Shown here: positions 649 to 4,961 of the stretch, in pieces
Position numbering within the stretch: the first letter of the stretch is position 1
How the letters are laid out: each line of letters opens with the position of its first letter
Assembly (NCBI GenBank): GCA_030066455.1
Contig: JASJBQ010000299.1
Location: 1-5,863 of the forward strand
Direction of reading: 5' to 3'
Origin: Desulfobacterales bacterium
GTDB lineage: Bacteria > Desulfobacterota > Desulfobacteria > Desulfobacterales > UBA5852
DNA: 5,863 bases
Notes under the pieces: generated by a model
Seen by the model: only the letters and a program-made list of their open reading frames with translations
The model's database searches: none
Told to the model about the DNA's origin: nothing
Position numbers and translations under genes: made by a program

Positions 649-864
649 AGTCATCCAAACAGGACAGCCTGCGGCCCATGCCGGTACTCGCACCCGTTCG
701 AGAACATCGACGTCGCCGGCGACGCCTGTGGCTTCAAATGGGTTGCGGCCCTGGCCTCAACCGAAAGCTGCCATTTAGGGATCAGTCCTGCTCAGGGGAA
801 GCGAGCGGTTGGGAAACGTCTTGTGCATGGGCAGGACAAAGCCCAAACCGAGGAAAGCCCGTCG
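649..864 (+). other. Spacer between the two exporters with an open Cys-containing frame and a 14-bp palindrome
   Basis: This gap of about 216 nt holds no gene with a usable start. A perfect 14-bp palindrome (CGTCGCCGGCGACG) lies at 711-724 without a following T-run, so it is not a convincing terminator. The frame of the MATE gene is open all the way back to the exporter stop codon at 648. It reads as ordinary protein composition, with CGPCRYSHPFENIDV at about 670-714 and GFKWVAALASTESCHLG further on, and has four cysteines at codons 670, 679, 727 and 769. There is no ATG, GTG or TTG in that frame before 823, so it may be a relic or chance. No clear promoter for the MATE gene was seen. Confidence 0.3.
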
Positions 865-2220
865 ATGCCCAGCATAAAAGCCTACAACCGATTGTTCGCC
901 GTGAGTCTGCCCCTGGTGTTCTCCATGGCGGCGACCACGGTCATGGAGTTCACCGATCGGGTGTTTCTGGCCAACTACGCCGTAGAGGCCATTGCCGCGG
1001 CCCTGCCCGCCGGGATCGCGGCCTTCCTGGTGCTGACACTTTTCACGGGCGTTACCGGCTACCTGAATGTCTTCGTGGCCCAGTATATCGGGGCGGGCGA
1101 CTATCGACAGATCGGCCGCTGTCTGTGGCAGGGGATCTATTTTACCCTTCTCGCGGCCGTCATGCTGATCGGCATTTCCTTCGGGGCCGAGAAGATTTTC
1201 CAGTGGGGCGGGCACCCGCCCGAGGTCCAGGCGCTGGAGCGCGTCTATTTCCGGATTCTCTGTCTGGGCGGGGGCGTCAACGTGCTGGGGACTTGCCTGG
1301 CCGGCTTTTTCACCGGAAGGGGCGAAACCCGCCCGGTGCTTTTGATCAACTGCATCGGGATGGCGGTCAATATCCCCCTGGACTACGCGCTGATCAACGG
1401 CGTGTGGATCTTTCCCGAACTCGGCATTCGCGGTGCCGGCATCGCCACGGTATGCGCCTGGTCCGTGATCGCCCTGCTTTTTGCAGGCCTCATCTTCGAG
1501 CGCGGCCACGAGCGACGCTACGGGGTTATTTCCCAGCGCGCCTTCGATGCCGAACTGTTCGCGCGCATCATCCGCAAGGGCGGGCCGGCCGCGCTCCAGT
1601 TCACCCTGGACGTGCTGGCCTTCACGTTTTTCGTCTTCATGGTGGGCCGTCTGGGAAAGACCGAGCTGGCCGTGAGCAACATCGCCCTTTCGATCCAGTC
1701 CATCGCCTTCATGCCGGCCTTCGGGTTCTCGATGGGCCTGTCCACCCTCGTGGGCCAGGCGCTGGGCCGCAACGACGCGGCGGGCGCACGGCGCTTCACG
1801 CGGCAAACCATCCAGGTGCTGCTGACCTACACGCTGCTGCTGGGGGGGGTGTTCTTCATATATCCGCACGAGCTGCTCGGTCTTTTCGGCATGGGGGCCG
1901 TGGACAGCACGGCTCACTTGCAGTTGCTGGACCAGGGCGTGGGGGTCCTGCGGATCATGGCGCTCTTCATCGCCTTCGATGCGCTGTACTTTACCTTCAT
2001 CGGGACCTTGAAGGGGGCGGGCGACACGCGTTTCATCATGGGCAGCATCGGTCTGGCCACGCTGTTCGTGATGCTGATCCCGCTGACCGTCATCGTCAGT
2101 TTCACGGATTGGGGTCTCTACGCCTGCTGGATCAATCTGACCCTCTACGTGCTGACGCTCTTCGCGGTATCCTTCTGGCGCTACCGGCAGGGGCGCTGGC
2201 AGAAAATCCGCGTCATCTAA
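865..2220 (+). CDS. MATE family efflux transporter (NorM/DinF-like)
   Basis: This 451-residue polytopic inner-membrane protein matches the usual MATE length of about 440-460. It is expected to export drugs or organic cations by Na+ or H+ antiport. Two homologous six-helix halves are visible. The first begins with the SLPLVFSMAATTVMEFTDRVF stretch typical of MATE helix 1 and has FFTGRGETR and NIPLDYALI near the end of the half. The second begins around GGPAALQFTLDVLAF and carries LVGQALGRNDAAGA and GTLKGAGDTRF, the repeats of the first-half motifs. The ATG at 865 is chosen because GAGGAA lies about 9 nt upstream (850-855). A GTG at 823 in the same frame would add 14 polar residues with no good ribosome site. 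The stop is 16 nt from the end of the convergent AhpD-like gene. No lesions are seen. Confidence 0.94.
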   Translation: MPSIKAYNRLFAVSLPLVFSMAATTVMEFTDRVFLANYAVEAIAAALPAGIAAFLVLTLFTGVTGYLNVFVAQYIGAGDYRQIGRCLWQGIYFTLLAAVMLIGISFGAEKIFQWGGHPPEVQALERVYFRILCLGGGVNVLGTCLAGFFTGRGETRPVLLINCIGMAVNIPLDYALINGVWIFPELGIRGAGIATVCAWSVIALLFAGLIFERGHERRYGVISQRAFDAELFARIIRKGGPAALQFTLDVLAFTFFVFMVGRLGKTELAVSNIALSIQSIAFMPAFGFSMGLSTLVGQALGRNDAAGARRFTRQTIQVLLTYTLLLGGVFFIYPHELLGLFGMGAVDSTAHLQLLDQGVGVLRIMALFIAFDALYFTFIGTLKGAGDTRFIMGSIGLATLFVMLIPLTVIVSFTDWGLYACWINLTLYVLTLFAVSFWRYRQGRWQKIRVI

Positions 2221-2236: not shown

Positions 2237-2514
2237 CTATTCGTAGCCCATTTGTTCCCGGACCTGCCGGAACTGGGCCCGGATGCGTCCCGCCGCGACC
2301 CCCATCGCGATGGCCTGCACCGCACCGATCTCCTCGTCGGTCAAACCGTTTTCCTTGGCCACGCCAAAGAAATGCGCCATTCACGGGTAGCCGCCGATGA
2401 CAAAAGATGCCGCCAGTTGCACCATAACCGCGGTCTTAGCGGCCAGGATATCGCGCCGGCGGTCGTGGCGGCGAAAAAGGTTTCGTAAGCCTGTTTCTGT
2501 TCGCGTGACAGCAT
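2237..2514 (-). CDS. Small AhpD/carboxymuconolactone decarboxylase-like protein, candidate selenoprotein (also frameshifted)
   Basis: ATG 2514-2512 follows an ideal AAGGAG (2525-2520, 5-nt spacing) and begins MLSREQKQAYETFFAATTAG. One base is then missing around 2457-2452. In the next frame the protein continues DILAAKTAVMVQLAASFVIG, then GYP, then TGA at 2383-2381, then 47 more codons starting MAHFFGVAKENGLTDEEIG and ending QVREQMGYE at the TAG (2239-2237). With the frame restored this is about 92 residues, the normal size of short CMD-domain proteins. These have a helix with a CxxC motif after the LxAKT...LA segment, and act as thiol peroxidase or alkylhydroperoxidase-like enzymes. The UGA falls on the second Cys of that motif (GGYP-UGA-MAH), while the first Cys is Gly. 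Selenocysteine insertion is the favoured reading, helped by a hairpin directly downstream. The alternative is a decaying gene in which TGC or TGT became TGA. The substrate is unknown. Confidence 0.75.
2350..2372 (-). promoter_or_regulatory. Candidate bacterial SECIS element downstream of in-frame UGA
   Basis: On the - strand, UUUCUUUGGC (2372-2363) pairs with GCCAAGGAAA (2359-2350) in ten continuous pairs, one of them G-U, closing a GUG loop at 2362-2360. The loop starts 18 nt after the UGA at 2383-2381 and its first base is G. This matches the general description of bacterial SECIS elements: a short hairpin immediately 3' of the UGA, apical loop roughly 16-37 nt away, and a G in the first two loop positions, recognised by SelB. 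The hairpin also encodes sensible protein sequence (FFGVAKEN), as a bacterial SECIS must. Folding energy was not computed. Confidence 0.5.
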
Positions 2515-2592
2515 GGTTTCTCCTTCCCTTGCCCCCGCTCTCCGTCCCGCAGATGCGGGCCATCGTGGCGGGCGGTTTGCCGGAGGTTGCTT

Positions 2593-2944: not shown

Positions 2945-3940
2945 ATGGACATCAGCACAACGTATTTGGGCCTGAAGCTCAACAGTCCGCTAATCGCCGG
3001 CAGTTCAGGGTTGACCGGATCGGTCGCCAAGATCAAAGCCATGGCCGAGCACGGCGCCGGGGCGGTTGTCCTCAAATCGCTCTTCGAGGAGGAGATCTAC
3101 TTCGAGCACGAGGATGTCCTCAAGGAGGCCGAGGCCGACGGGGTCGATCTGGACCAGTTCGACTACTACGATTATCATCTCAAAGGCCAGAAGCTCGACC
3201 GCTACGTGAACCTGATCGCGGAGGCCAAACAGGCGGTGGACATCCCCGTTATCGCCAGCATCAACTGCCTCTACTCCCACGAGTGGACCGTTTTCGCCCG
3301 TCGGCTGGAGACGGCCGGCGCCGATGCCTTCGAGCTGAACATGTTCTTTCTGCCTTCGGACTTCCAACGCTCGGCCCGCGAACAGGAAGCCGCCTATTTC
3401 AAGATCATCGAGAAAGTCATGGCCACCGTATCGATTCCGGTGTCGCTCAAGATCAGCTACTACTTTTCCAACCTGGGCCCGATGATCCAGCGCCTGTCGC
3501 AAACGGGCGTCAAAGGCATCGTCCTGTTCAACCGTTTCTTCAGCCCGGATATCGACATCGACAACTTCAACGTCAAACCCTCTTTCGTCTTCAGCAGCCC
3601 GGCGGAGCTGGCGGTCTCCCTGCGCTGGGTGGCCATCATGGCCCAGAAGGTGGACTGCGACCTGGCCGCCTCCACCGGCGTGCACAATGGCGCGGCCCTC
3701 ATCAAGCAGCTCCTGGCCGGGGCCCGGGCCGTCCAGACGGCCTCAAGCCTTTACAAGAACGGGCCGGCACACGTCGCGACCATGATCGATGCCCTGAAAA
3801 GCTGGATGCAGAAGCACGGCTTCGACAGCCTCGACGATTTTCGCGGCCGCATGAGCCAGGAGGCGACCACCAATCCGGCCATCTACGAACGCGCGCAGTT
3901 CATGCGTTATTTCGGGGGGGACAAGGAGGAGGTTACCTGA
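2945..3940 (+). CDS. Dihydroorotate dehydrogenase-like flavoprotein
   Basis: This 331-residue TIM-barrel protein of the PyrD superfamily is likely cytosolic and FMN-binding. It opens with MDISTTYLGLKLNSPLIAGS, the usual start of class 1 DHODs, and has the FMN-contact region GAGAVVLKS (Lys44), the strand VIASIN (102-107), PVSLKIS (Lys169) and a phosphate-loop-like STGVHNG at 243-249 followed by a GARAVQ strand. Where class 1 enzymes carry NxSCPN with the catalytic Cys, this protein reads NMFFLPSD (132-139), so the catalytic cysteine is absent and true dihydroorotate oxidation is doubtful. It therefore belongs with the DHOD-like proteins of anaerobes whose substrate is not established. ATG 2945 follows GAGGAG at 2933-2938 with good spacing. 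The stop overlaps a mini-ORF start, and the HMG-CoA lyase follows, so the pair is likely an operon. Confidence 0.92.
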   Translation: MDISTTYLGLKLNSPLIAGSSGLTGSVAKIKAMAEHGAGAVVLKSLFEEEIYFEHEDVLKEAEADGVDLDQFDYYDYHLKGQKLDRYVNLIAEAKQAVDIPVIASINCLYSHEWTVFARRLETAGADAFELNMFFLPSDFQRSAREQEAAYFKIIEKVMATVSIPVSLKISYYFSNLGPMIQRLSQTGVKGIVLFNRFFSPDIDIDNFNVKPSFVFSSPAELAVSLRWVAIMAQKVDCDLAASTGVHNGAALIKQLLAGARAVQTASSLYKNGPAHVATMIDALKSWMQKHGFDSLDDFRGRMSQEATTNPAIYERAQFMRYFGGDKEEVT

Positions 3941-4026
3941 TGGCGGCCGGGACTTCTCTCCGCCGTATCGCGGCCATTGCAGGGCCTGGCGCCGTGGTCC
4001 CCGATTCGTTGGGGGACGCATGCTGA
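3940..4026 (+). CDS. Bridging mini-ORF (28 codons) between the DHOD-like and HMG-CoA lyase genes
   Basis: The DHOD-like stop TGA (3938-3940) shares its A with ATG 3940-3942, preceded by a strong AAGGAGGAGG (3923-3932). The frame runs 28 codons, starting MAAGTSLRRIAAIAG and ending SLGDAC, and stops at TGA 4024-4026. That stop lies 1 nt beyond the start codon of the lyase (ATGCTGA, 4020-4026). The lyase itself has only a weak GGGGGA (4011-4016). The simplest reading is a coupling ORF that delivers terminating ribosomes to the lyase start. The peptide matches no family I know, and the open frame could be chance in GC-rich DNA. Confidence 0.35.
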   Translation: MAAGTSLRRIAAIAGPGAVVPDSLGDAC

Positions 4027-4961
4027 AAATCGTCGAAGTCGGCCCGCGGGATGGGCTCCAGAACGAAACCGCCACCATCCCCACGGACGCCAAGGTGGCC
4101 TTCGTGGATGCCCTTTCCGCCAGCGGGTTGAGCGAAATTGAAGCCGGCGCCTTTGTCGCGCCCCGCCGTGTGCCGCAGCTTGCCGACGCCGATGAAGTCT
4201 TCCGCCGCATGGCGCGCCGTGAAAATGTCGTCTATTCCGCCCTGGTGCCCAATGGGCAGGGACTCGATCGCGCCCTCGCCGCCGGGGTCGGCAAGATTGC
4301 CGTTTTTACGGCCGTCAGCGAGACATTCAACCACCGCAACATCAACACGTCGCTGGCCGGCTCGCTACGGCGGTTCCAGCCGGTGATCCGGCGCGCCCGG
4401 GAAAACGCTCTCCCGGTGCGGGGCTATCTCTCGGCGGCCTTCTGGTGCGCCTTCGAAGGACGAATCCCGCCGGAGGCCACCATCGCGGTGGCGGAAAAAC
4501 TCATCGACCTGGGCGTCGGCGAGGTGGCCATCTCCGACACCATCGGCAAGGCGACGCCGGCGCAGGTCGCGCGTCTCCTCGACGGCCTTCTTCCCAGGGT
4601 CCCGGCCGCAAACATTGCCGTTCACTTTCACGACACCTACGGCCGGGGCGTGGCAAACGTGCTGAAATCCTGTGAGTACGGTATCCGAATTATCGATGCC
4701 AGTGTTGGTGGGCTCGGCGGATGTCCCTTTGCGCCGGGGGCTACGGGCAACGTGGCCACCGAAGCGGTGGTCGCCGCCCTGAGCGCCCAGGGGATTGGCA
4801 CGGGGGTCGACCCTGAAAAACTCGGGTGCGCCCGGCAACGCCTCGATCCCTTTCTGCGTTCAGCGCGTCGTCCTCCACCCGCAGCCGACCTGCTGGCCTG
4901 CGCCGCCTGCGAGCATGTCGCCGACGGGGACTGCTGCGGCCGCAAAGCGGCGACGGGATGA
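4020..4961 (+). CDS. mvaB: Hydroxymethylglutaryl-CoA lyase
   Basis: This 313-residue DRE-TIM metallolyase is expected to split 3-hydroxy-3-methylglutaryl-CoA into acetoacetate and acetyl-CoA, the last step of leucine degradation and of ketone-body formation. Visible features are the N-terminal KIVEVGPRDGLQNE with the catalytic Arg10-Asp11, the metal-binding HFHDTYG (His202, His204), and the signature GGLGGCPFAPGATGNVATE with Cys235 and Asn244, spaced as in the characterised enzymes. SETFNHRNIN and GYLSAAFWCAFEG are also family-like. ATG 4020 is right because the conserved VEVGPRDG starts four residues in and no other in-frame start lies nearby. The ribosome site is weak, so coupling to the upstream ORFs is likely. 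The C-terminal tail (about 291-313) is unusual: Cys294, Cys297, Cys305 and Cys306 in a short hydrophilic segment. A related acyl-CoA lyase with another substrate is the main alternative. Confidence 0.92.
   Translation: MLKIVEVGPRDGLQNETATIPTDAKVAFVDALSASGLSEIEAGAFVAPRRVPQLADADEVFRRMARRENVVYSALVPNGQGLDRALAAGVGKIAVFTAVSETFNHRNINTSLAGSLRRFQPVIRRARENALPVRGYLSAAFWCAFEGRIPPEATIAVAEKLIDLGVGEVAISDTIGKATPAQVARLLDGLLPRVPAANIAVHFHDTYGRGVANVLKSCEYGIRIIDASVGGLGGCPFAPGATGNVATEAVVAALSAQGIGTGVDPEKLGCARQRLDPFLRSARRPPPAADLLACAACEHVADGDCCGRKAATG

Follow-up and report, generated by a model that had tools for sequence, protein, structure and literature searches.

Known AhpD-like selenoproteins and the window family

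Selenoproteins of the AhpD/CMD type with a CxxU motif are on record in the available portions of two papers, so the kind of protein considered here is already known, as the original prediction had said (PMC13188914; PMC2398784). The part of PMC13188914 at hand credits a distant AhpD homolog with CxxU (NF041047) to Kryukov and Gladyshev 2004, and a CMD-like selenoprotein with CxxU (PF02627) to a Sargasso Sea study. A literature search for GSU3128, the name carried by NF041047 (GSU3128 family (seleno)protein), found no paper. The DNA analysed here, a stretch of 5,863 nucleotides referred to as the window, holds a gene of the same type. It is likely that this gene is a recently inactivated member of a family of short (~91 aa) CMD/AhpD-like selenoproteins, in a Desulfobacterales-like bacterium. 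The window looks like a case in which a selenocysteine (Sec) codon and its SECIS hairpin have outlasted the gene they served.

The piece of the window read through the UGA scores 30.4 bits against Pfam PF02627 (CMD), for which the gathering cut-off is 23. This score, together with CxxU in the relatives, makes the family similar to the CMD-like selenoprotein PF02627, a likeness drawn from its description. The family also resembles NF041047 in its CMD kind, its short protein and its CxxU with the UGA second, but it lies outside that curated family, to which it is related: the window piece reaches 29.7 bits and four relatives reach 27.1-40.5, far under the cut-off of 110. Family members tested fall under every NCBIfam cut-off matched, the four relatives being below those of NF041047, NF045649, NF041537 and TIGR04169. 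The two best NCBIfam matches are to the C-terminal AhpD-like domain of MduS (NF045649) and ArsM/AhpD (NF041537). Those models span ~340 positions and describe methyltransferase fusions, whereas the window family is a stand-alone domain and scores far below their cut-offs. Intact relatives are ~91 aa long and give a profile match over the CMD core to the solved CMD-family chains 3bey, 1vke and 1p8c. Mycobacterium tuberculosis AhpD is presumably a related system as well. The window family differs from it and from the solved chains, the latter compared by profile, in that most relatives carry Sec as the second redox residue. Judged from its family, the protein is likely a thiol/selenol redox enzyme.

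Locus and gene order

The gene sits on the minus strand between genes for a MATE transporter and a DHOD-like protein (Table 1). The other open reading frames of the window are uninterrupted, namely part of an MFS protein (215 aa), MATE (465), DHOD-like (331), HMGL (313) and a further orf (150). Since all five are uninterrupted, indel errors do not appear to be common in the window sequence. The nearest named relatives of the HMGL protein, among the best 120 of 7999 matches, are metagenome-assembled genomes labelled Desulfobacterales, and this similarity places the window near that order. Searches of plasmid and viral collections gave no match.

Table 1. Features of the window around the CMD/AhpD-like gene
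Feature	Position	Strand	Basis
AhpD/CMD-like selenoprotein gene, likely remnant, ATG to TAG	2237..2514	-	Pfam CMD PF02627 on the part read through UGA; family alignments
Shine-Dalgarno-like AGGAG, 5 nt before ATG	2520..2524	-	sequence, by eye
Frame a: MLSREQKQAYETFFAATTAG, start of the family N-terminus, from ATG 2514-2512	2455..2514	-	sequence and family comparison
Frame break, net +2 or -1 vs relatives, approximate place	2450..2461	-	ATG-to-UGA 131 nt vs 129
Frame b: DILAAKTAVMVQLAASFVIGGYP, 23 family-like codons before UGA; Gly codon 2392-2390	2384..2452	-	
UGA, very probably ancestral Sec codon	2381..2383	-	TGA 43, Cys 7 of 52 related loci
47 codons after UGA, MAHFFGVAKENG...GYE, then TAG at 2239-2237	2240..2380	-	protein matches
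SECIS-like hairpin, 9-10 bp, loop GUG 2362-2360; conserved 7-bp core 2369-2353	2350..2372	-	
MATE efflux transporter, intact, convergent neighbour	823..2220	+	syntenic in L082
Dihydroorotate dehydrogenase-like (DHOD-like) protein, intact	2945..3940	+	syntenic in L082
Hydroxymethylglutaryl-CoA lyase-like (HMGL) protein, intact	4020..4961	+	syntenic in L082

One relative, L049/L082 in genome G617, is syntenic with the window. Gene order is conserved and identities to L082 are 87% for MATE, 91% for the DHOD-like protein, 78% for HMGL and 71% for orf5055; a search of L082 with the MFS fragment found nothing, even at E<=1. The distance from the family gene to the DHOD-like gene is ~2 kb in L082 versus ~0.4 kb in the window. 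The family gene of L049/L082 is intact, with CxxU and 43 codons up to the UGA.

Probable selenocysteine at the UGA column

The in-frame TGA reported by the original prediction is confirmed, with DILAAKTAVMVQLAASFVIGGYP before it and 47 family-like codons and a TAG after it, and so is its place at a position of Cys/Sec exchange. Among 52 related loci compared at the DNA level, this column holds TGA in 43 and Cys in seven (five TGC, two TGT); one broken copy (L075) has CGA and one locus (L025) is unaligned, its codon being TGA by eye. The 52 comprise L001-L005, 16 of 30 loci, 30 further loci and L076; this column comparison and that of the hairpin leave out L020 (the same place as L002), L077-L081 (repeats) and L031-L043 (distant matches).

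Protein records give a matching picture. A search at E<=1e-3 gave 112 protein matches: 98 start at the Met directly after the UGA, the pattern expected from truncated gene calls, 10 cross the column and four start elsewhere. Together with the 52 DNA-level loci, this argues that the UGA arrangement is not due to chance. Upstream, 119 of 120 N-terminal halves (the best 120 of 395) end at CYP directly before the UGA. A metagenome protein (P0011) is 98% identical to the window over its 47 post-UGA residues. The family is widespread in metagenome data, where most gene calls are truncated fragments and some place Trp at the Sec position.

Could the UGA be an ordinary stop, with the 47 codons that follow forming a separate small gene or arising by chance? 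An ATG does stand directly after the UGA, and the 47-aa piece appears in databases as a protein. However, Cys homologs cross the column without a stop, and the exchange between Cys and UGA already contradicts this explanation. The residue after the UGA is also not always Met, being Leu in L004, Thr in L057 and Val in L062 and L063. With the hairpin evidence given below, the idea of an ordinary stop is very improbable.

Among the 10 column-crossing proteins, nine have Trp at the Sec column (P0002-P0007, P0009, P0010 and P0012) and one has Leu (P0008). Trp here was considered as evidence against Sec and rejected, as a Trp or Leu codon occurs in none of the 52 DNA-level loci. For this reason, the Trp in protein records probably reflects gene calling under a genetic code that translates TGA as Trp; the Leu of P0008 does not fit this account. 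P0130 also has Trp at the Sec column.

For the family, the comparison of loci gives strong support to Sec at this column, and UGA 2383-2381 is very probably an ancestral Sec codon. The prediction of a Sec codon therefore stands for the family, through TGA/Cys exchange, SECIS covariation and tRNA-Sec in carrier genomes, but does not extend to a working copy in the window.

The hairpin after the UGA

Published rules for the bacterial SECIS, as given in the accessible part of PMC13188914, call for a loop of 3-9 nt with G in one of the first two positions, 16-37 nt from the UGA, an upper stem of 4-16 bp and a minimum free energy of <= -7.5 (PMC13188914). The window hairpin agrees with them, with 18 nt from UGA to loop, a 3-nt loop with G first and -10.8 kcal/mol. 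Folding of the 65-nt stretch as a single sequence gives z -0.46, which is no support by itself; support for the hairpin thus comes from covariation.

Numbered from the T of the UGA, columns 15-21 form the conserved pairing with columns 25-31. In 17 rows, 96.6% of the cells are paired and changes on both sides are seen in five of the seven pairs. None of 500 shuffles reaches either the paired-cell or the both-side-change value (17 rows, kinship uncorrected), and pairing falls to 24-61% when the partner is shifted by 1-3 columns. Further pair types show no excess over shuffles, 481 of 500 reaching the observed value. Three covarying pairs have one side at a third codon position (18 with 28, 27 with 19 and 30 with 16), so that protein constraint alone offers no ready explanation. 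Across 45 UGA rows (43 of them distinct), kinship again uncorrected, 37 form seven pairs, seven form six and the broken L076 forms three. These rows include the window and other broken copies as well as L026 and L027, added by hand, and leave out L075, which has no TGA. Within the hairpin stretch, L070 and L071 have the same sequence.

UGA copies retain the hairpin, whereas the four Cys copies compared form 2, 2, 4 and 5 of the seven pairs. This contrast argues further against an ordinary stop, although the broken L075, with CGA in place of UGA, also forms 7/7 pairs.

Selenocysteine machinery in genomes carrying relatives

Above-cut-off tRNA-Sec was found in four of five carrier genomes in a first set and in 11 of 15 genomes tested out of 35 matching genomes. 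Best matches in the individual positive relatives score 69-77 bits, the cut-off being 47. The tRNA is also above cut-off in five of 14 control genomes. In the first set of five, the one genome without it above cut-off is that of L001, the copy with an extra TAA and TAG. For selA, seven of eight relatives' genomes are above cut-off versus one of 14 controls, and for selB five of eight versus two of 14; the set of eight includes the four genomes that lack tRNA-Sec among the 15. In genome G617, selA is present, but the searches found neither tRNA-Sec (E<=1e-8) nor a selB above cut-off, which may reflect an incomplete assembly. A search of the order of G373 at E<=1e-15 matched only G373 itself.

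In intact relatives, the ribosome would read the UGA as Sec with the help of SelB, tRNA-Sec and the hairpin that directly follows the codon, and the predicted product would carry a CxxU redox centre.

Frame break and lost cysteine in the window copy

The original prediction held that the gene reads well on both sides of the TGA. This is borne out after the TGA, where family-like codons run to the TAG, and directly before it; higher up, a frame break separates the start codon from the rest. The ATG and MLSREQKQAYETFFAATTAG do not share the frame of the codons preceding the UGA, a break that the original prediction passes over. ATG to UGA measures 131 nt in the window, compared with a family norm of 129 nt (43 codons), and 95 of 120 N-terminal halves (the best 120 of 395 found) are exactly 43 aa long; the difference indicates a net +2 or -1 frameshift. 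A continuous frame from start to stop with the UGA as Sec is therefore absent. Good reading around a UGA is, as a warning, no proof of a working gene.

The window also has Gly at the first Cys of CxxU. All 51 aligned loci and all 119 N-terminal halves have Cys in this column; the row dropped from the list (P0130) likewise has Cys. At column 28, Ala replaces Thr, and Ala is unseen in the 119 N-terminal halves. In the proposed course of events, the frameshift would part the start codon from the Sec codon, the partner Cys would have become Gly, and translation begun at 2514 would run into an out-of-frame stop after 57 codons; a full-length protein is therefore not expected.

Divergence of the N-terminal half alone proves nothing. 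The window stretch before the UGA has a weak match to L082 (57% over 21 residues) and differs from L046 at 16 of 41 residues, but the intact L049 differs at 15 of 41, and its N-terminal half also holds residues that are rare or unseen in the family. After the UGA, the comparison with L049 gives dN 0.05 and dS 0.47. The low dN and the 98% match of P0011 speak against decay, in that they give no sign of long neutral decay; the C-terminal half, like the UGA and its hairpin, is well kept, so the loss looks recent.

The same conservation lends itself to the main rival, an intact and working gene whose frame break, and perhaps also its Gly codon, are sequencing or assembly errors. The C-terminal half, UGA and SECIS are intact, dN against L049 is low, a near-identical C-terminal half exists elsewhere (P0011), and the window may be a metagenome record. 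Error would nevertheless have to strike twice within ~70 nt, as an indel and again for the Gly, in a window where five other frames run uninterrupted, and we regard this explanation as unlikely.

More improbable still is that the window copy works as a GxxU selenoprotein, whether through another start codon in the UGA frame or through ribosomal frameshifting. The UGA frame is open upstream from an ATG at 2563, and GxxU motifs are given for other selenoprotein families in the portion of PMC13188914 available (PMC13188914). The first part of that open stretch is unlike the family, however, and a start at 2563 would swap the family N-terminus for unrelated sequence; Gly at the first redox position occurs in none of the 51 aligned loci and none of the 119 N-terminal halves. 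The suggestion that GxxU forms an unusual functional centre is not upheld, given the invariant first Cys in the aligned loci and the frameshift in the window copy. The original prediction had also named several further disabling mutations in close relatives as a finding that would speak against it. The lesions seen come near to this, but they lie in the window copy itself and not in its relatives. Recent inactivation of a selenoprotein gene remains the preferred explanation for these lesions.

Other degraded copies exist. L001:5944-6198 has an extra TAA and TAG, L075 has CGA and lacks its N-terminal half, L076 is short at both ends, the match to L074 stops at residue 57, and the sequence upstream in L025 is unrelated.

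Neighbourhood of family genes in other genomes

The family gene adjoins hgcA, which encodes the mercury methylation corrinoid protein, in L015, L019 and L022. L019 and L022 have a ferredoxin gene, judged HgcB-like from its position, between hgcA and the family gene and ~40 nt from the latter. HgcA from L015, L019 and the L022 genome (G290) scores above the NF040863 cut-off. In 395 genomes from one phylum, hgcA is above cut-off in 113; 12 of the 395 have a family match at E<1e-20, seven of these 12 have hgcA, and the two genes are neighbours in three of the seven, in two different arrangements. No hgcA match was found in the window or in the short fetched flanks of L046-L074 (order of G166). 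If confirmed, the adjacency seen in three genomes would be of importance for mercury methylation.

Arsenite methyltransferase genes above cut-off adjoin the family gene in L002 and L015, and arsenite methyltransferase-like genes found by tblastn only lie near it in L005, L016 and L065. Similar tblastn matches near the distant relatives L031, L034, L036, L038 and L040 are not counted.

HgcA and HgcB selenoproteins appear in the available text of PMC13188914 and are mentioned in that of PMC11588087, so Sec in mercury methylation is already known (PMC13188914; PMC11588087). Among the papers listed in literature searches, none was seen to describe a link between AhpD and hgcA, and PMC13188914 alone has both, in separate table rows; such a link may already be in print. 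Tentatively, and with more doubt than confidence, the stand-alone AhpD-like selenoprotein family might be a so far unrecognised partner, dependent on Sec, in organometal(loid) chemistry, and might assist mercury and arsenic methylation through redox reactions or metal handling.

An arginine-deiminase-like gene is a further recurrent neighbour of the family gene, in L055, L059 and L060.
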